DNA from: Acidiphilium sp. 37-60-79
GTDB taxonomy: Bacteria > Pseudomonadota > Alphaproteobacteria > Acetobacterales > Acetobacteraceae
Direction: 5' to 3'
Assembly (NCBI GenBank): GCA_002279355.1
Contig: NCBV01000006.1
Span: 1 to 64,000, forward strand
Length of the DNA stretch: 64,000 bases
Below the pieces are notes generated by a model. The model saw only the letters and a program-made list of their open reading frames with translations. It ran no database searches and had not been told where the DNA came from. Position 1 is the stretch's first letter. The number at the start of each line of letters is the position of its first letter. Shown in pieces: positions 6,921 to 57,225 of this stretch. The translations under genes and the position numbers were made by a program.

Positions 6921-7805
6921 ATGCTTGATTTGATCGAATACGCCGTGGTCGGCGGCATCCTGTATGGGGTGTTTTTTAGCTTGATCGGTATTGGCCTGAA
7001 CCTGGTGTTCGGGGTGATGCGGATTATCAATTTGGCGCATGGCCAGTTCATTATGTTGGGCGGGTTTGGCGCGTTTATGATGGTGCATTATTTGCACCTT
7101 AACCCGCTGGCCGGGATTCCGCTGGCAATTATCGGGGCTGTGGTGATTGGGTGGCCGCTTTATTATGCGGTGGTGCCGCGTTTGCAGGCGAGCCGCGATC
7201 CTGAGATGCTGTCGTTTATTCTGTTTTTCGGTATTGCCCAGATGATTGAGGCGATCACCGGTTTGGCGTTTGGCGCTAATCAGCGTTCCCTGCCCAGCTC
7301 GGCGCTGGGGGGTGGCAATTTGGCGGTGCTGGGGCAGAGCTTTCCCGATAGCTGGTGGGTGGCTGATTTGGTGAGTGTGCTCGCGATTGTCGGGCTATAT
7401 TTGTATTTCTCCCGCACCAAGCTGGGCTATGCGACGCGCGCGATCATGGCGAACCGGGAAGAGGCGCGGGCGACCGGCATTGATGTGGACCGGGTTTCGG
7501 TGATTGCCTTTGTGATGGGCCTCGCGCTCGCGGGAATTGCCGGGGTGTTCGTGCCTTATTTGCTGGGGTCGGTTTCGCCCGATATTGGCGATACGCTGAC
7601 CACGACCTCGTTTGCGATTGTGATTATCGGCTCGCTTGGCAATCCGCTTGGCACGGTGATTGGTGGCTTGGTGTTTGGCTTGGGCACGATGATGATGCAG
7701 ACTTTTTATTCGTCCTGGTCCAATTTGGTGCCTTATGCGTTGTTGATGGTGATTGTGCTGATCCGCCCGTCCGGGTTGCTCGGCAAGGCGGCCCGCGTTG
7801 CGTGA
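6921..7805 (+). CDS. livH: ABC transporter permease, LivH type
   Basis: A 294-residue integral-membrane permease with eight or so hydrophobic segments, starting YAVVGGILYGVFFSLIGIGL and containing the LivH signature GVMRIINLAHGQFIMLGG. The cytoplasmic coupling region lies around ATRAIMANREEARATGID. TTG at 6918 could extend it by one codon; ATG at 6921 is preferred. It is 83 bp after livJ, and its stop overlaps the proposed livM start. It forms half of the membrane channel of the importer. Confidence 0.92.
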   Translation: MLDLIEYAVVGGILYGVFFSLIGIGLNLVFGVMRIINLAHGQFIMLGGFGAFMMVHYLHLNPLAGIPLAIIGAVVIGWPLYYAVVPRLQASRDPEMLSFILFFGIAQMIEAITGLAFGANQRSLPSSALGGGNLAVLGQSFPDSWWVADLVSVLAIVGLYLYFSRTKLGYATRAIMANREEARATGIDVDRVSVIAFVMGLALAGIAGVFVPYLLGSVSPDIGDTLTTTSFAIVIIGSLGNPLGTVIGGLVFGLGTMMMQTFYSSWSNLVPYALLMVIVLIRPSGLLGKAARVA

Positions 7806-23201: not shown

Positions 23202-24185
23202 TTAGAAAACCTTGGCGACTTGCACGAGGAAGAACACATCGTTCTTCACGCCACCGCGTGTGCGAACGTCAGTGGCCAATTCGGTTTGTAGCGCGACGGT
23301 GGGTGATACGAAGGAGCCCGCGACGATGCCGACTTGGGTGAGATTGTTGCGGTTACCGGTGTCGATTTTATCGGGGAAGCTGAACCCGCTTGGTAGTGTG
23401 ACATTGCCGGTTAGATATTGCTTGCCACCGAAGGTCTGCTCAAACGACAGACCGACATAAGCACCGGTTTGCGGATGGAAGTAGTAAGGCAGATAAGCCA
23501 GGATCTGCTCAGCCGGTTGGGTATGTTCGGCGCCGTGGAAGACACCCGAGGTGAAGTTATTATTGTTGCTGTAGATGTAGGAATCCAGCGCAATATCAAA
23601 ATCCAAGTGCGGCGTTTTCGGCGTGCCGGTGATGATATGGCTATACAGGACTTCGAAGTTGTTCACGTAGTTATTGGTGCCTGCATTCAGCGTGTAGTTC
23701 GGATTATACGCGCCTGTCGGCGGACTGAAGAAGTAAGCGAGCGTAACAACTTGGTCATCAGCCGGATCGTTATAGACTTTTAAGAAACCGGAGAGCAACG
23801 GCTCGGCAAAGCCGCTATTGCGGGTGAGTGAATTGCCACCAACCTCGGTATTGCCCAGAAACGCCACGTAGGGCGCGATCACCTGCACGCCGGGAATCAT
23901 CCCATCAATGGGCGAGAACGTGTGGACCAAGCGAATGATCGGCACGTCGGTCGCGACATGGGTATTGCCGACTTCCGTGCCATTCGCCGTGTAGAGACTG
24001 CTACCACTTGAGAATTGATTGTAGAACTGCGCCACGGTGATGTTGGGCGGCGGCGTCGGGAAGTCGAACGGCAGCGGTGCACCGGCTTGAGCGACGCCCG
24101 CAAGGCCGAAACAGGCGAGACCGGCACCAACGGCAAGGGCGAGACGGGCGACAAAAGAACGTTTGGACTTGGTATTTTTCGACAT
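23202..24185 (-). CDS. SphA/MetA-type outer-membrane protein
   Basis: A 327-residue beta-barrel candidate with a signal peptide (VARLALAVGAGLACFGLAGVAQA). The mature sequence alternates polar and aromatic residues and ends in VAKVF, a C-terminal aromatic typical of outer-membrane barrels. The pattern matches the Phenol_MetA_deg family (SphA/MetA), whose members are found in phenol and other aromatic degradation clusters and are thought to help substrate entry. ATG at 24185 follows a GGGGAG site; a TTG one codon upstream is not needed. Flanked by MFS and a Liv importer on the same strand. Confidence 0.8.
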   Translation of the reverse strand: MSKNTKSKRSFVARLALAVGAGLACFGLAGVAQAGAPLPFDFPTPPPNITVAQFYNQFSSGSSLYTANGTEVGNTHVATDVPIIRLVHTFSPIDGMIPGVQVIAPYVAFLGNTEVGGNSLTRNSGFAEPLLSGFLKVYNDPADDQVVTLAYFFSPPTGAYNPNYTLNAGTNNYVNNFEVLYSHIITGTPKTPHLDFDIALDSYIYSNNNNFTSGVFHGAEHTQPAEQILAYLPYYFHPQTGAYVGLSFEQTFGGKQYLTGNVTLPSGFSFPDKIDTGNRNNLTQVGIVAGSFVSPTVALQTELATDVRTRGGVKNDVFFLVQVAKVF

Positions 24186-24326
24186 CAATCAATCTCCCCT
24201 GGGATTTTATTTATGAACCAACGATTACACGAGTTATCATAACGTTCAAGCATGAACGTGCAGTATCTCGCACCGAGACGCAAAATTCAGACATTGGCGT
24301 TGCTTCAACGACACAGACCAACCTGA

Positions 24327-25799
24327 TCATAGGTAGTTTTTTCCTGCTTCATCGGCGAATCGGGCCGGTGTGCCTTGCCAAACCAATCGTCCGTGCTCGA
24401 TCAAATAAACGCGATCGGCGTGGGGCAGTGCAAAGGTTATATTCTGCTCACCCAAGAGCAGCGTGATATCGGTTGTTTCGCGCAGCACCCGCAACGCATC
24501 GGACAATTGAGCCAAAATCACTGGCGCCAAGCCCAATGTTGGCTCATCGAGGATGAGCAAGCGCGGCTTCATCATCAGCGCCCGGGCGATGGCCAGCATT
24601 TGCTGCTCGCCGCCCGAGAGGGTGCGTGCCTGTTGCTCGCGCCGCGATTGGAGAATCGGGAATAACCCAAACAGCCAATCTTGCCGCGATTTTTGCTCGG
24701 CCGGAGCGAGGCGTTGTGCCGCCAGATCGAGATTATCTGCAACACTCATGGTGCCAAGCAATTCGCGCGTTTCGGCGCATTGCACCAGCCCGGCGCGGGC
24801 GATGGCGGCGGGGTCGTGTTTACGGCGCATTTCACCGTCCCAGCTGATGGTGCCTTGGTACGGGATTAGGCCGGACATGGCGTTGAACAGGGACGTTTTG
24901 CCGGCGCCGTTGAGGCCGACGACCGAGACGAATTCGCCTTGATGCACCCGGATCGACACGTCATCGAGCGCTTGCGCTTTGCCGTAGAACACGCTCAACC
25001 CGGCGACATCGAGCAGGATTTGATGGGCGTTGATCTCGGCTTCCGGGCGTTCATGGGTTTCGATGGTGCCGCCGATATAGACGCGGCGGACGGTTTCATC
25101 GCGCATGACGTGGTCCGGCGTGCCTTCCGCAATTTTTTCACCGAGATAGAGGGCCGACACGCGGTCCGCGAGGGCTGCAATGCTTTTCACATTGTGGTCC
25201 ACCAGCATCACGGCTCGACCTTGATCGCGAAACGCCTTGATCAGATTGGCGAAATCTTCAACCTCATCGCGCGCGAGGCCAGCGAAGGGTTCATCGACCA
25301 GGACCACGCGCGGATCACGCGCCATCACCTTGGCCATTTCCATGCGGCGCAAATCCGCAAACGGCAGGCTCGCGGGCGTGCGGTCTAACACTTTGTCGAG
25401 GCCGCACAAGGCTGCGATTTCGCGCGCCCGATCTAGCGCACCGGGAGGCGGGCGCAGATGGGTGAGACTATCGGGCAAAAGACCGAGCAGAATATTTTGG
25501 AGGACGGTTTGCAGGCGGAGCGGCCGTGCATGTTGGAACACCAGGCCGATTCCGGCGCGGGCGATCCGGTGCGTGGGTCGTCCGGCCAAATCAACCCCAT
25601 CGAGCAGAATGCGTCCGGCGGTGGGTTTGACCACGCCCATGACCATTTGCATGGCGGTGGATTTGCCCGAGCCGTTAGGCCCGATTAGCCCGAGAATTTC
25701 GCCGCCATAGAGTGAAAAATCGAGCGATTTGACCGCCACGAGCCCGCCAAACCGCTTGGACAGCCCTTCGACCACCAACCGTGGTGTGGCTTCCCTCAT
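24327..25799 (-). CDS. fused LivG-LivF ABC ATPase
   Basis: A 490-residue protein that joins two complete nucleotide-binding domains. The first (residues about 7-245) is LivG-type: Walker A GPNGSGKST, IGLVFQHARPL, Walker B VVLVDEPFAGLA, YLGEKIAEGTPD. The second (about 260-490) is LivF-type: GLNGAGKTS, LVQCAETRELLGTMSVADNL, signature LSGGEQQMLAIARA, LLILDEPTLGLAP. The first domain's signature is degraded (SLPFADLRRMEMAKV), like the LivG of the other operon. The start overlaps the end of livM by four bases. The fusion enforces one-to-one pairing of the two ATPases. Confidence 0.92.
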   Translation of the reverse strand: MREATPRLVVEGLSKRFGGLVAVKSLDFSLYGGEILGLIGPNGSGKSTAMQMVMGVVKPTAGRILLDGVDLAGRPTHRIARAGIGLVFQHARPLRLQTVLQNILLGLLPDSLTHLRPPPGALDRAREIAALCGLDKVLDRTPASLPFADLRRMEMAKVMARDPRVVLVDEPFAGLARDEVEDFANLIKAFRDQGRAVMLVDHNVKSIAALADRVSALYLGEKIAEGTPDHVMRDETVRRVYIGGTIETHERPEAEINAHQILLDVAGLSVFYGKAQALDDVSIRVHQGEFVSVVGLNGAGKTSLFNAMSGLIPYQGTISWDGEMRRKHDPAAIARAGLVQCAETRELLGTMSVADNLDLAAQRLAPAEQKSRQDWLFGLFPILQSRREQQARTLSGGEQQMLAIARALMMKPRLLILDEPTLGLAPVILAQLSDALRVLRETTDITLLLGEQNITFALPHADRVYLIEHGRLVWQGTPARFADEAGKNYL

Positions 25800-27665: not shown

Positions 27666-28907
27666 TTATTTCGATGCGGTTACGAAGGAGGGGAACACCA
27701 CCTTCGCATTGGCTAATTTCAACGGCCATACGCATTTTTGCACGCCGTTTTGCCACTGAATTGCAACGCCGGTGATAAATCCAGGGCCATAGCGCAGCGC
27801 ATGGGTGAATTTGGCGGACTTGCCTTGGAATTCCAGCCGCCCTTGCGTGCCGACCATGTCGGTTTTTTCCAACCCGGCCACGATGGCGTTTGGCTTGGTT
27901 GATTTTTCCCGCTTGATCGCAGCCGCGAGTGCATACATCGCATCATAGGTCGAGTAGGCCGAATAGGCCGGGTCCGAGCCGAATGCTTTGTTATAGGCGT
28001 CGGTGAACGGGATCGTTTTCGGGGTGATTGCGACACCGGGGGCCGAGGTGTTGCCGGTGAGCACACCCTCGGTTGCGCCGTTGGTGGCTTTCCAGAACAG
28101 CGAGGAGCCCGCTTGCGCGTTGATGCCGACCAAGGCCACCGGCACTTTTTGTTCGGCCCATTGAACGGTGGGTTGCACACCGACATGCGCCCAGCCTGCC
28201 ATGATCATGGACGGATGCATCGCCTCGATTTTTTGATAAATCGGGGTGAAGTCGGTGGTGTTGGGGTCAAAGCGGATATTGCCCAATACTTTGACGCCGA
28301 CTTTGGGCAAGCAATTATCATATCCGGCATCGAGCGGCTTGGTCCATGCTGCATCCTCGCTCAGCACCACGGCGGTGGTCATATGCATCGGGACCAGCAA
28401 ATCCTTGGTGGAATCGCAAACCGCTTGCGCCAGATAGGCTGCGGGCAGATAGGCATGGAAAATATATTTGCGCTGTGCGTAATCAGCATGGACATATTCG
28501 GCGAGCTTGTTGGACGCGGCGCCGGTGATCAGGAATGGCTCATGCAGGCGGGCCGACCACGGTTCCACCGCCAGCGCGACCTCGCTGGTGAAAGCACCCA
28601 GGATCGCGACCGCGTGATCCTGGCGGGTCATGCGCTGGAATGAGCGGATCGCATCGGTGGTGGAAATATGGTTGTCTTCGATGATCAATTTGATCGGCCG
28701 GCCATTGATGCCGCCCGCCGCGTTGATTTGCTGAACGGCCAGCGTCGCGCCATTGGCGATGGCCTTGCCGGGAATGGTTGCCATTTCGGCGGTGACGCCG
28801 ATGACGATGGGTTTCTGGGCGGCCTGAACGGCTACCGTGGAAACCCCAGCCGCCAAAATCGCTGCAAGTGCGATACCCGCACCCCGTTTGATGTTGGGTT
28901 TGGACAT
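27666..28907 (-). CDS. Liv-type ABC substrate-binding protein
   Basis: A 413-residue periplasmic binding protein; signal peptide through VSTVAVQAA, then KPIVIGVTAEMATIPGKAIANGATLAVQQINAAGGING, typical of Peripla_BP_6. GGGGAG precedes its ATG. It heads the second importer operon (binding protein, livH, livM, fused livGF). Given the neighbouring SphA-type porin, MaoC and PaaI genes, the ligand may be an aromatic acid rather than an amino acid; this is inference. Confidence 0.9.
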   Translation of the reverse strand: MSKPNIKRGAGIALAAILAAGVSTVAVQAAQKPIVIGVTAEMATIPGKAIANGATLAVQQINAAGGINGRPIKLIIEDNHISTTDAIRSFQRMTRQDHAVAILGAFTSEVALAVEPWSARLHEPFLITGAASNKLAEYVHADYAQRKYIFHAYLPAAYLAQAVCDSTKDLLVPMHMTTAVVLSEDAAWTKPLDAGYDNCLPKVGVKVLGNIRFDPNTTDFTPIYQKIEAMHPSMIMAGWAHVGVQPTVQWAEQKVPVALVGINAQAGSSLFWKATNGATEGVLTGNTSAPGVAITPKTIPFTDAYNKAFGSDPAYSAYSTYDAMYALAAAIKREKSTKPNAIVAGLEKTDMVGTQGRLEFQGKSAKFTHALRYGPGFITGVAIQWQNGVQKCVWPLKLANAKVVFPSFVTASK

Positions 28908-53903: not shown

Positions 53904-55121
53904 ATGCTGAGCCGCAAGCGCGCGTTTGGACTGATTGCCGCGATCGTGGTTGGGTTAATCGCGGAGGCGCTGATTGCACGCTCGACCTTATATGGCCATG
54001 GGACACTGACGTTGGGCCAAGGCATGATGGCGCGGGATTTCGGGGATTTTTGGAGCGCCGGCCATCTCGCTTGGGCGGGACGGGTGCGAATAATTTTTCA
54101 ACCGTCGCTGTTTCAGCATTGGTTAGAGGGGCGCTTCACATTTGTGCATGGTGCGCGGATGTGGAGCTATCCGCCAAGCATGGTGTTTCTGGTGCTGCCC
54201 GTGGGGCTTGTCGGGCCGGTGGCTGGGTTTGTGCTCTGGACGGCTTTGGGGATGGCAGCTTTAGCCGGGGCACTGGCGTTATTGGTGCCGCGCCGCGATT
54301 TTGGCCCGGCGGCGCTGCTGGTGTGCATGTTGCCGGTGGTGTGGGACAATATTTTAGCAGGGCAGAATGCCGCCTTTACCGGGGCCATGCTGATTGCTGG
54401 GTTTGTTTGGTTGGACCGACGCCCTGGATGGGCAGGGGTGGCGTTCGGACTGCTGACGATCAAGCCGCAACTGGGTTTGCTGGTGCCGCTGGCGCTGCTG
54501 GCGGCGGGGCGGTGGCGAGCGATTGGCATCGCTGCTTTGGTAGCGGTGGGGTTGGCGGGGCTAAGCGCATTGGTATTTCCGGGGTCATGGACGATGTTTT
54601 TTGCGCATGTGGCGACCGCAATGCAGCATCGGCTCTTGCGCCATTATCTGCCCACGCCAGGGCAGGCTTACATGTCGAGCGCATTTATTGCGGCGGAGGG
54701 CGCCAGATTTCCAATTTGGGCCGCTTGGGCGACGCAGGGTTTGGTGACCATGTTGGCATCCGTTGCGATGGTGCGACTCTGGCGGCGGACCCCCGCGTCC
54801 TCCACGGCCCGGCTATGGCGGATTGTGGCCTCGGTGGCCTTATGTTTAGCTGCTTCGCCTTATGGCTTGGATTATGACGCGGTCGGGGGTGGTTTGGCCT
54901 TGGCGGCGCTGATCGTCACCCAAGGACAATCGCTCCGGCGGGACCGGTTTGAGGTTGGCCTCGTGGCGATTGCGACACCGGGTTGGAGTTTAGTGCTGGC
55001 CGAGGTGTTTCACGTGCCGGTTTTTGCTTGGATACCCTGGTTGATTCTGGGGTGTTGGGAAGCTTTTGCTCCGGAGCAAAATCATCGGGCACCCGCGATC
55101 AGCACGGGGGAGGCGCGATAG
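53904..55121 (+). CDS. GT87/DUF2029-type polyprenyl-phosphate mannosyltransferase-like protein
   Basis: A 405-residue membrane protein with about ten helices. ARDFGDFWSAGHLAW in the first loop has the D-F-x-x-F/W-x-A pattern of the DUF2029 family, and FGLLTIKPQLGLLVPLALL is its KPQ block, both typical. The start at 53904 is favoured, giving a normal N-terminal helix. It uses a lipid-linked sugar donor by family analogy. Divergent from the GT-C-like protein; its 3' end overlaps the lytic transglycosylase gene by 40 bp on the opposite strand. Confidence 0.85.
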   Translation: MLSRKRAFGLIAAIVVGLIAEALIARSTLYGHGTLTLGQGMMARDFGDFWSAGHLAWAGRVRIIFQPSLFQHWLEGRFTFVHGARMWSYPPSMVFLVLPVGLVGPVAGFVLWTALGMAALAGALALLVPRRDFGPAALLVCMLPVVWDNILAGQNAAFTGAMLIAGFVWLDRRPGWAGVAFGLLTIKPQLGLLVPLALLAAGRWRAIGIAALVAVGLAGLSALVFPGSWTMFFAHVATAMQHRLLRHYLPTPGQAYMSSAFIAAEGARFPIWAAWATQGLVTMLASVAMVRLWRRTPASSTARLWRIVASVALCLAASPYGLDYDAVGGGLALAALIVTQGQSLRRDRFEVGLVAIATPGWSLVLAEVFHVPVFAWIPWLILGCWEAFAPEQNHRAPAISTGEAR

Positions 55122-56023
55122 GCGGCGAGGCTCATACCGCCCGCATGGGCTTGGATCATGCGCATCGGCGGTGCAACGAACTGAAAGCTGCCCGCGCCAA
55201 AGCCCGGCGGCGCGACAATGGCGCCGGGTGCGGGTTTTGGTTGCATCGGGCGGGTGGATTTGGCGGGTTTGGCCGCGGCCAAAATGAGTTTCGGCGGTGG
55301 GGCGAACGGTGCCGATGACGCGGCATGACGCTGCCAAACCGCCGCGACTTTTTGGTAATAGGGCGTCCCGAGGCTGGGGTTGAGCGAGTGATACCCACCG
55401 ATTGCGGCAGACCAGTGTCCGAGATCGGAATGGAGCGTCAGTAGAAAATGCGCGCCGTAGAGCGCGTTGGTCAGCGGATCGAACGCTTGGTGCAGGGTGG
55501 CGAAGGCGTCCGGATGGGCGGCAAGGTCGATTTGCAGGCATCCAACATCGATCGCTTGGATGCCTTGGGCCCGGAGTTGGCGGACGGCAGCGATGGCTTG
55601 GGATTCAGTGGCATAAAAATGACCGGCGCCATTCGCATCGATCGTCCAGGGCCAGGGGGCAACTTGGCCCGTGGCGGGGTTGCGACGGCCGGATTCGATC
55701 ATGGCGATTGAGCGCAGCAGGCCAGCGGGGGTGCCAGCCATCGACTGCGCTTGGTGGATCGCGGCGGCGCAGGTAGCGAACGGGTCCAAACCAGGGGATC
55801 GGTTTGTGCTGATTGCGGGGCGGGAAATCGGGTGCGTGTTGAGGATTGCGGTCGGACGCGGGGACAGCTTCTTCAGAGGCTGCGGCGGCGCGGATGCCCA
55901 AGAAAATTGTGGGAACAGGGATTGCGGCAGCACAATTCCGCTCGCCCTGGCATCCGGGGCGACTAAACAGGCAAGGAGCAATAGGCCCAAAAAGATGGGT
56001 TTGCGAAGCGATTGGACGACCAT
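55082..56023 (-). CDS. lytic transglycosylase domain protein
   Basis: A 313-residue exported protein; signal peptide IFLGLLLLACLVAPDARA. The SLT domain begins about residue 95: GLLRSIAMIESGRRNP holds the catalytic Glu in the standard E-S-G-R motif, and VGCLQIDLAAHPDAF, LTNALYGAHFLLTL, AIGGYHSLNP follow the lysozyme-like fold. The C-terminal 70 residues are Pro/Ala-rich. It cuts peptidoglycan; by position next to the tad locus it may open the wall for pilus assembly, though this is inference. Confidence 0.88.
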   Translation of the reverse strand: MVVQSLRKPIFLGLLLLACLVAPDARASGIVLPQSLFPQFSWASAPPQPLKKLSPRPTAILNTHPISRPAISTNRSPGLDPFATCAAAIHQAQSMAGTPAGLLRSIAMIESGRRNPATGQVAPWPWTIDANGAGHFYATESQAIAAVRQLRAQGIQAIDVGCLQIDLAAHPDAFATLHQAFDPLTNALYGAHFLLTLHSDLGHWSAAIGGYHSLNPSLGTPYYQKVAAVWQRHAASSAPFAPPPKLILAAAKPAKSTRPMQPKPAPGAIVAPPGFGAGSFQFVAPPMRMIQAHAGGMSLAAYRASPVLIAGAR

Positions 56024-56107
56024 GGAGCGGATTATTGGCGCGGAGAGTTAATTTGAAGTTGAGAAAATGATCGGATTTTAGTGCAATGCTGCGCTGCAAA
56101 ATTTATC

Positions 56108-56135
56108 TTGCACTGCACAATAGAATTCGCTAAAC
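56108..56135 (+). promoter_or_regulatory. promoter of the small RNA gene
   Basis: TTGCAC (56108-56113) and CTAAAC (56130-56135) with 16 bp between, in an AT-rich region. Predicted start is about 56142, two bases ahead of the RNA's first stem. Confidence 0.6.
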
Positions 56136-56141
56136 AAAATC

Positions 56142-56225
56142 ATGCAAACGCGACATTGTCGCTTGTTTGCTTTCTTGGACGTTTCCTCCCTAAACTTGGC
56201 GGCACTTCGGTGCCGCCTTTTTTTT
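56142..56225 (+). ncRNA. probable anti-Shine-Dalgarno small RNA
   Basis: A compact sRNA gene of about 84 bases. A 5' hairpin has arms GCAAAC-GCGAC (56144-56154) and GTCGC-TT-GTTTGC (56158-56170). A single-stranded middle (TTTCTTGGACG, then TTTCCTCCCTAAACTT at about 56182-56197) holds a CCUCCC sequence able to pair with ribosome-binding sites. A terminator hairpin with UUCG tetraloop and eight T closes it. A promoter at 56108-56135 fits the start. The architecture matches the anti-SD sRNAs of alphaproteobacteria (alpha-r15/ABCR and related CCUCCUCCC RNAs) by analogy, not by database match. Neither adjacent gene needs a plus-strand terminator here. Confidence 0.75.
56198..56225 (+). terminator. 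terminator of the small RNA
   Basis: GGCGGCAC-TTCG-GTGCCGCC, an 8-bp stem with a UUCG-type loop followed by eight T. Unmistakable intrinsic terminator on the plus strand. Confidence 0.95.
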
Positions 56226-56247
56226 GCCCGCCACGTTGGGTTTGTCG

Positions 56248-57129
56248 TCAGGGGACGGACAATAAATCTGCTGTGGTTGTCACGAGGCTGGTGAGTAGCC
56301 GGGTGATTGCCGATTGCACGCCATTAAACCCGGTGTTCCGCACCAAGCTTGTCTCGTCCATATAGAGCCCTCGGGCAATTTCGATTTGCAGCACATGCAC
56401 GTGGTGACGCGGCCGTCCGTAATGGCGGGTGACATAGCCGCCGGCATACGGGTCGTTCCGGCGAACCAAAAAGCCTTCATGGCGAAGCGCGATTTCGACA
56501 TGGGTTACGATATCACGATGACAGGCGGCACCGTGGGCATCGCCGAGGACGAGATCGGGCGGGCGGCTTGCTGGGGTGAGCGGCGTGGGCATCGAATGGG
56601 CATCGATCAGCAGGCAACAGCCGAATTGTGCAGTTGTGCGCTCAATCAGCGTTTGCAGCGCGTGGTGATAGGGCGTCCAGCAGGTGGCGATGCGGGTTTG
56701 CGCCTCGGCAAAGCGGAGTTTTTGCCGGTAAATTGGCTCACCCGAGCCCACCAGCTTGGCGATGGTGCCAAGACCAGCGGCGACGCGGGGGCTGGCATGG
56801 TTGATATGAGGTGGCAGCGCATCCTCGAACATCGCCGGATCGAGCTCCCAAGCCTCGCGGTTCACATCGCAAAAGGCGCGGGGAAAATTGGCTGTGAGCA
56901 GCGGGACACCAAGGCCGGGTGCTGCGGCGAACAGCTCATCAACGAAGCAATCTTCGGTTTTGCGCAGCGAAAAGGGCGTCAGGCGGGATGCGGCGAGGAA
57001 TTCGGCGGGATAATCACGCCCGGAATGCGGCGAGGCGACGATCAGCGGCGCGGCCTGAACGCTGGGCTGGTGCAGGGTAATGGCGCCAAGCACCTCGGCA
57101 CACCGCGCGGCTGTGGGGGTTAATTCCAT
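56248..57129 (-). CDS. N-formylglutamate amidohydrolase family protein
   Basis: A 293-residue cytoplasmic hydrolase. VASPHSGRDYPAEFL near residue 35, TEDCFVDELF, ANFPRAFCDVNREAWELDP, LLIDAHSMP and the late NDPYAGGYVTRHYG are the conserved blocks of the FGase family (HutG-type), which releases formate and glutamate in histidine breakdown or acts on related N-formyl amides. The start at 57129 gives the normal N-terminus (MELTPTAARC); the frame is open to 57177. No hut genes adjoin, so the specific role is unclear. Confidence 0.88.
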   Translation of the reverse strand: MELTPTAARCAEVLGAITLHQPSVQAAPLIVASPHSGRDYPAEFLAASRLTPFSLRKTEDCFVDELFAAAPGLGVPLLTANFPRAFCDVNREAWELDPAMFEDALPPHINHASPRVAAGLGTIAKLVGSGEPIYRQKLRFAEAQTRIATCWTPYHHALQTLIERTTAQFGCCLLIDAHSMPTPLTPASRPPDLVLGDAHGAACHRDIVTHVEIALRHEGFLVRRNDPYAGGYVTRHYGRPRHHVHVLQIEIARGLYMDETSLVRNTGFNGVQSAITRLLTSLVTTTADLLSVP

Positions 57130-57225
57130 GAAACGCCATCCATGCGGCAAAATTGACGGGAAAATAGCGCCGGTCAATGCTATATAAGGAAGATAGTTTT
57201 CATCGTTTAGCCGGAGGCGCTGTTA

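Follow-up and report, generated by a model that had tools for sequence, protein, structure and literature searches.

Does the short intergenic stretch at 56108-56225 of this Acetobacteraceae genome contain a regulatory RNA gene and, if so, which regulator and which mRNAs is it connected to? A preliminary description of the window (the whole 64-kb stretch of DNA that was analysed) had proposed a compact small RNA (sRNA) gene, and the promoter, 5′ hairpin, CCUCCC stretch and UUCG terminator that it listed are all found there (Table 1). No gene ends on the plus strand within these 118 bp, as had been stated, both flanking genes being on the minus strand. Because a terminator-like site alone is common in the region (two terminators versus 0.9 ± 1.0 expected, which is within chance), the weight of the RNA-gene call lies on comparative evidence; the family match and the conserved position are beyond chance. 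The covariance search of the 64 kb with Rfam that had been suggested returned RF00519 (suhB/MmgR, alpha-r8; full Rfam name “Makes More Granules Regulator RNA”) at 56162-56232(+), with 54 bits against a curated cut-off of 41 (E = 2.5e-8). This is the sole non-tRNA Rfam family across the whole window; further weak matches in Rfam, SorY and RyhB among them, were far under their respective cut-offs and were rejected. As a member of RF00519, the locus is tied to the alphaproteobacterial anti-Shine-Dalgarno (anti-SD) RNAs by homology, where only an analogy had been drawn before.

We are highly confident that 56142-56225 represents a genuine alpha-r8 member, which would act in the anti-SD mode. Judged by its sequence, it is an alpha-r8 sRNA linked to the N-formylglutamate amidohydrolase (FGase) gene of an Acetobacteraceae bacterium and a relative of Sinorhizobium meliloti MmgR and Caulobacter SisA. 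The RNA gene proposed earlier is real, but not over the full 118 bp: the transcript probably starts near 56142, leaving 56108-56141 as promoter. The analysis thereby identifies an intergenic segment as a well-defined gene for a regulatory RNA. The locus is wholly within known biology, as a genuine member of a known family at the site typical for it, and the additions to the known picture are conserved PhaR-type operators and a candidate bipartite target. The preliminary description mentions neither the synteny with FGase nor the PhaR sites.

Table 1. Positions of the sRNA gene, its elements, its neighbours and the candidate target in the window.
Feature	Position	Strand	Basis
Left neighbour gene	55082-56023	-	Points away from the sRNA
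Distal PhaR/AniA-like palindrome TGCGCTGCA	56090-56098		YGCRNYGCR consensus (PMC12542648)
Promoter TTGCAC-17-TAAACA	56108-56136	+	Read directly: -35 TTGCAC 56108-56113, 17-nt spacer, -10 TAAACA 56131-56136; -35 position conserved in relatives
Second PhaR/AniA-like palindrome TGCACTGCA, overlapping the -35	56109-56117		YGCRNYGCR consensus
Alpha-r8/MmgR-family sRNA, ~84 nt	56142-56225	+	RF00519 match and relatives; 5′ end predicted
5′ hairpin	56144-56170	+	Sequence varies, pairing kept
Invariant core UUCUUGGACGUUUCCUCCCUAAA	56173-56195	+	Invariant columns of a 22-sequence alignment; invariance continues to 56197
Family 10-mer UUUCCUCCCU, anti-SD seed	56182-56191	+	Read directly; equals the 10-mer of PMC12559287
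Rho-independent terminator, UUCG loop, T8	56198-56225	+	Stem-loop 56198-56217, then T8
FGase, convergent neighbour	56248-57135	-	PF05013, E = 4.1e-73
Candidate target: periplasmic solute-binding protein, Liv-type ABC operon	27666-28907	-	PF13458, E = 1.4e-40

The published hallmarks of alpha-r8 are a single-stranded 10-mer, a terminator and location next to an FGase gene, and the FGase adjacency of the window copy matches this published neighbour (PMC12559287). For a non-circular sample, loci were picked within the same family by the FGase protein alone and scanned up to 800 bp beyond the FGase 3′ end. The sequence GTTTCCTCCCT occurred in the alpha-r8 setting at 23 of these 30 loci, compared to about 0.006 expected by chance (our own estimate from 4^11), which bears out the conservation of CCTCCC that the preliminary description had proposed to check. 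A second sample, made up of named genomes ranging from Acidocella to Caulobacter, had it at 16 of 28 FGase loci. An alignment of 22 relatives shows no variation over some 25 nt (UUCUUGGACGUUUCCUCCCUAAACU), whereas the terminator and the 5′ hairpin differ in sequence through substitutions that compensate one another; therefore, the core is probably the functional part, with the hairpins kept as shapes.

The 118-nt stretch folds more stably than its shuffles (z -3.0). The stem of the 5′ hairpin (GCAAAC-GCGAC / GTCGC-TT-GTTTGC) has a z-score of -3.4 in the window copy and a mean of -2.0 over 46 copies, and columns 14-20 of the 22-sequence alignment form a covarying pair. In the terminator, both sides of the pairs 66-77 and 67-76 are changed in 10 of the 22 sequences. 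The short weak hairpin that the Rfam model places before the 10-mer is absent from the RNAalifold consensus of the Acetobacteraceae RNAs; a longer hairpin does form at 56144-56170. The stretch described earlier as single-stranded, TTTCCTCCCT as read directly from the window, is otherwise as claimed but open for the most part rather than throughout (in the window copy, unpaired with a mean probability of 0.71), since weak GGA/UCC pairing lowers its openness.

The closest known systems differ from the locus in some details. S. meliloti MmgR shares with the window copy the Rfam family, the 10-mer, the type of terminator and a PhaR/AniA operator in the promoter region, whereas the window copy has a longer, variable 5′ hairpin and lacks a predicted counterpart of the model's short hairpin. 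Caulobacter crescentus SisA-D are, like the window copy, several siblings in one genome with one FGase-linked member (SisA). SisA uses the same 10-mer to pair with a TonB receptor mRNA in its 5′ UTR and, together with Hfq, to repress it; for SisA-D, Hfq-dependent base pairing to targets (the TonB receptor and others) is proven. AbcR1 and AbcR2 of S. meliloti are likewise anti-SD sRNAs, and the genes they repress, livK among them, encode solute-binding proteins of ABC transporters, as does the candidate target at 27666; they belong to a different family, and no AbcR model of Rfam matches at the locus.

The layout of both palindromes upstream of the window copy recurs in an Acidocella sp. locus (L121). 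We counted YGCRNYGCR sites from -130 to -20 of the core in 46 non-identical copies, using dinucleotide shuffles as control. The copies contain 69 sites compared to 11.4 ± 3.1 in the shuffles (maximum 20), and 43 of the 46 have at least one box, where about 10 (9.7) were expected and the shuffles reached 16 at most. All 23 FGase-selected copies carry a box. The boxes are mostly located directly 5′ of the -35 or, in the arrangement known from S. meliloti, close to where transcription presumably starts; the S. meliloti mmgR operator site is CAATTGTGCACCGCAGCATTA (PMC12542648). Around the start site, TTGTGCACCGCAGCA or a similar sequence is found in many of the Acetobacteraceae copies; the window copy differs from MmgR in that it has no operator there, its two boxes being the one across the -35 and the distal one. 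No site in the window matches the 21-nt PhaR consensus exactly over its full length, and only the 9-nt palindromic cores fit. The genome encodes one PhaR (PF07879, E = 2.7e-30), two PHA synthase matches, two phasins and Hfq, and one of its phasin promoter regions (L038, 1072-1140) contains two PhaR-type boxes, TGATTGTGCGCTGCACAAAAA and TTTTGCTGCACCGCACCATGA, as do S. meliloti phaP1/phaP2, providing an internal positive control. In S. meliloti, PhaR binds the mmgR promoter directly and represses mmgR (PMC12542648). The conserved boxes, the PhaR, PHA synthase, phasin and Hfq genes and the phasin-promoter boxes together make PhaR control of the sRNA gene a well-supported prediction, which we consider likely to be correct. 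The retention of these operators in Acetobacteraceae suggests that the connection from PhaR to alpha-r8, demonstrated in S. meliloti, is old and widespread.

To which mRNAs the open core could pair was assessed for the gene starts of the 64-kb window, using 28 nt of the core, automatically chosen start codons and simple duplex energies. The start of 27666-28907 ranks first of 54 with -21.1 kcal/mol, in a measure that ignores target accessibility; of all ATGs in the window, 0.8% attain this value. The pairing would be bipartite, with the Shine-Dalgarno (SD) sequence AGGGGAG opposite CUCCCU and AAAAUGUCCAA opposite UUGGACGUUU, so that the SD and AUGUCCAAA of the mRNA engage both halves of the invariant core. 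The Liv genes had been named as possible targets in general, and 27666 had been proposed for target prediction; the suggestion suits the top-ranked 27666 but not the permeases at 25796 (-8.0 kcal/mol) and 26716 (-11.5 kcal/mol), both poor candidates. Near the Liv-type operon, 23202-24188(-) (PF13557) has a start, AGGGGAG..ATGTCGAAA, that resembles the 27666 site (-16.5 kcal/mol).

GGGAG and AUGUCCA are kept in all seven closest orthologues from a protein search (73-100% identity, the window's own gene counted), although only 7% of residues 4-33 of the binding protein are invariant across the seven. Two of nine orthologues (64-66% identity) are without AUGUCCA and keep only GGGGAG. Conservation of the SD is expected from the ribosome anyway. 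One codon is kept in all seven orthologues for 23% of the invariant degenerate residues; codon conservation is hence only suggestive, and that of the target site, taken by itself, would arise by chance roughly once in every four or five cases. In a genus-wide pattern search, 8 of 13 genomes had the site in the binding-protein gene, and for no other gene was the number as high. On these sequence data, 27666-28907 is the best local candidate and a plausible rather than an established target, with somewhat less than an even chance of being a true one. It offers a concrete candidate with a conserved pairing site, direct alpha-r8 targets having been proven only in Caulobacter in the literature searched.

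Two wider searches for targets were abandoned. Genome-wide, GGGAG-N-ATGTCCA is without enrichment relative to related second codons, making up 33 of the roughly 327 matches to an eight-codon pattern; as TCC shows no excess as second codon and matches outside the binding-protein gene recur in at most two genomes, no regulon was derived from it. The genome has three perfect complements of the 10-mer (AGGGAGGAAA), two of them the antisense of alpha-r8 copies and the third inside a coding frame (integrase-like by eye), away from a start site.

The strongest alternative is that the RNA acts mainly via phasins and PHB storage and that the binding-protein match reflects coincidental SD complementarity, which we give a nearly even chance. 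MmgR limits the phasins PhaP1 and PhaP2 and PHB in S. meliloti, PhaR boxes are present at the locus, anti-SD RNAs inherently match many SDs, and the missing enrichment of the seed pattern fits this explanation as well. The genome's own two phasin starts pair worse than the binding protein, however (-12.5 and -16.1 versus -21.1 kcal/mol), and were rejected as strong pairing targets; the maintenance of the site in the seven close orthologues, given how few of the nearby residues are invariant, also argues for the binding protein.

On the favoured explanation, the following sequence of events can be envisaged. An RNA of about 84 nt would be made from its own promoter and bound by Hfq at its 3′ end. 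The 10-mer, sometimes extended by UUGGACGU, would mask the ribosome-binding sites and start codons of mRNAs for nutrient uptake and metabolism and, by homology to SisA, most likely block translation of several of them. With no PHB stored, PhaR would repress the sRNA gene; PHB granules would titrate PhaR and release the gene, and under carbon surplus the sRNA would restrain further uptake or storage. A more specific, genus-level proposal, in which PhaR titrated by PHB frees the sRNA and two half-sites, maintained by selection, clamp the ribosome site and AUGUCCA of the binding-protein mRNA, is tentative and rather unlikely to hold in full. If true, an alpha-r8 RNA couples the PHB gauge PhaR to nutrient uptake in an Acetobacteraceae genus; a connection of PhaR through an alpha-r8 RNA to Liv-type uptake is not reported in the literature searched.

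The promoter bears on a second alternative, namely that the window copy is degenerate or silent and a functional sibling resides elsewhere. A strict sigma-70 scan of the region found no promoter, and the -10 element is weak; CTTGC, by comparison, stands at the -35 place in 36 of 46 relatives versus about one in shuffles. The genome contains three further RF00519 matches, all weaker than the window copy. One, on contig 66 (18718-18797, minus strand of the extracted locus), is a second alpha-r8-like gene with an intact 10-mer and could be such a sibling, but at 35.9 bits it is under the Rfam cut-off and far below the 54 bits of the window copy, which also has the usual FGase place and an intact core, terminator and operators. 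A silent window copy is therefore very improbable. The contig 66 sibling has one marginal YGCRNYGCR box upstream (CGCGCTGCG). Contig 6 (6939-7016) carries a weaker relative that has AAGCCTCCCTGTTGACTT as well as a terminator and may be a diverged sibling whose seed has changed; the weak match on contig 18 was set aside as coding sequence by eye.

That the locus is just a bidirectional terminator or the FGase 3′ end, as the convergent gene next door and the strong terminator at its end might suggest, is extremely improbable given the family match, the invariant single-stranded core, the conserved promoter opposite the FGase strand and the copies that occur apart from FGase and on plasmids.

Among the plasmid copies, that of the Acidiphilium cryptum conjugative plasmid pACRY03 (L149, 2994-3063; 50 bits) lies between mobF relaxase and RecD-like helicase genes and has a PhaR-like box upstream. 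An identical 241-nt sequence is present on a plasmid assigned to Acidithiobacillus ferrooxidans (L148, 2994-3063), a non-alphaproteobacterium, pointing to either transfer or contamination by co-culture. In BLAST searches, plasmids of Roseomonas and one of Methylobacterium also match.
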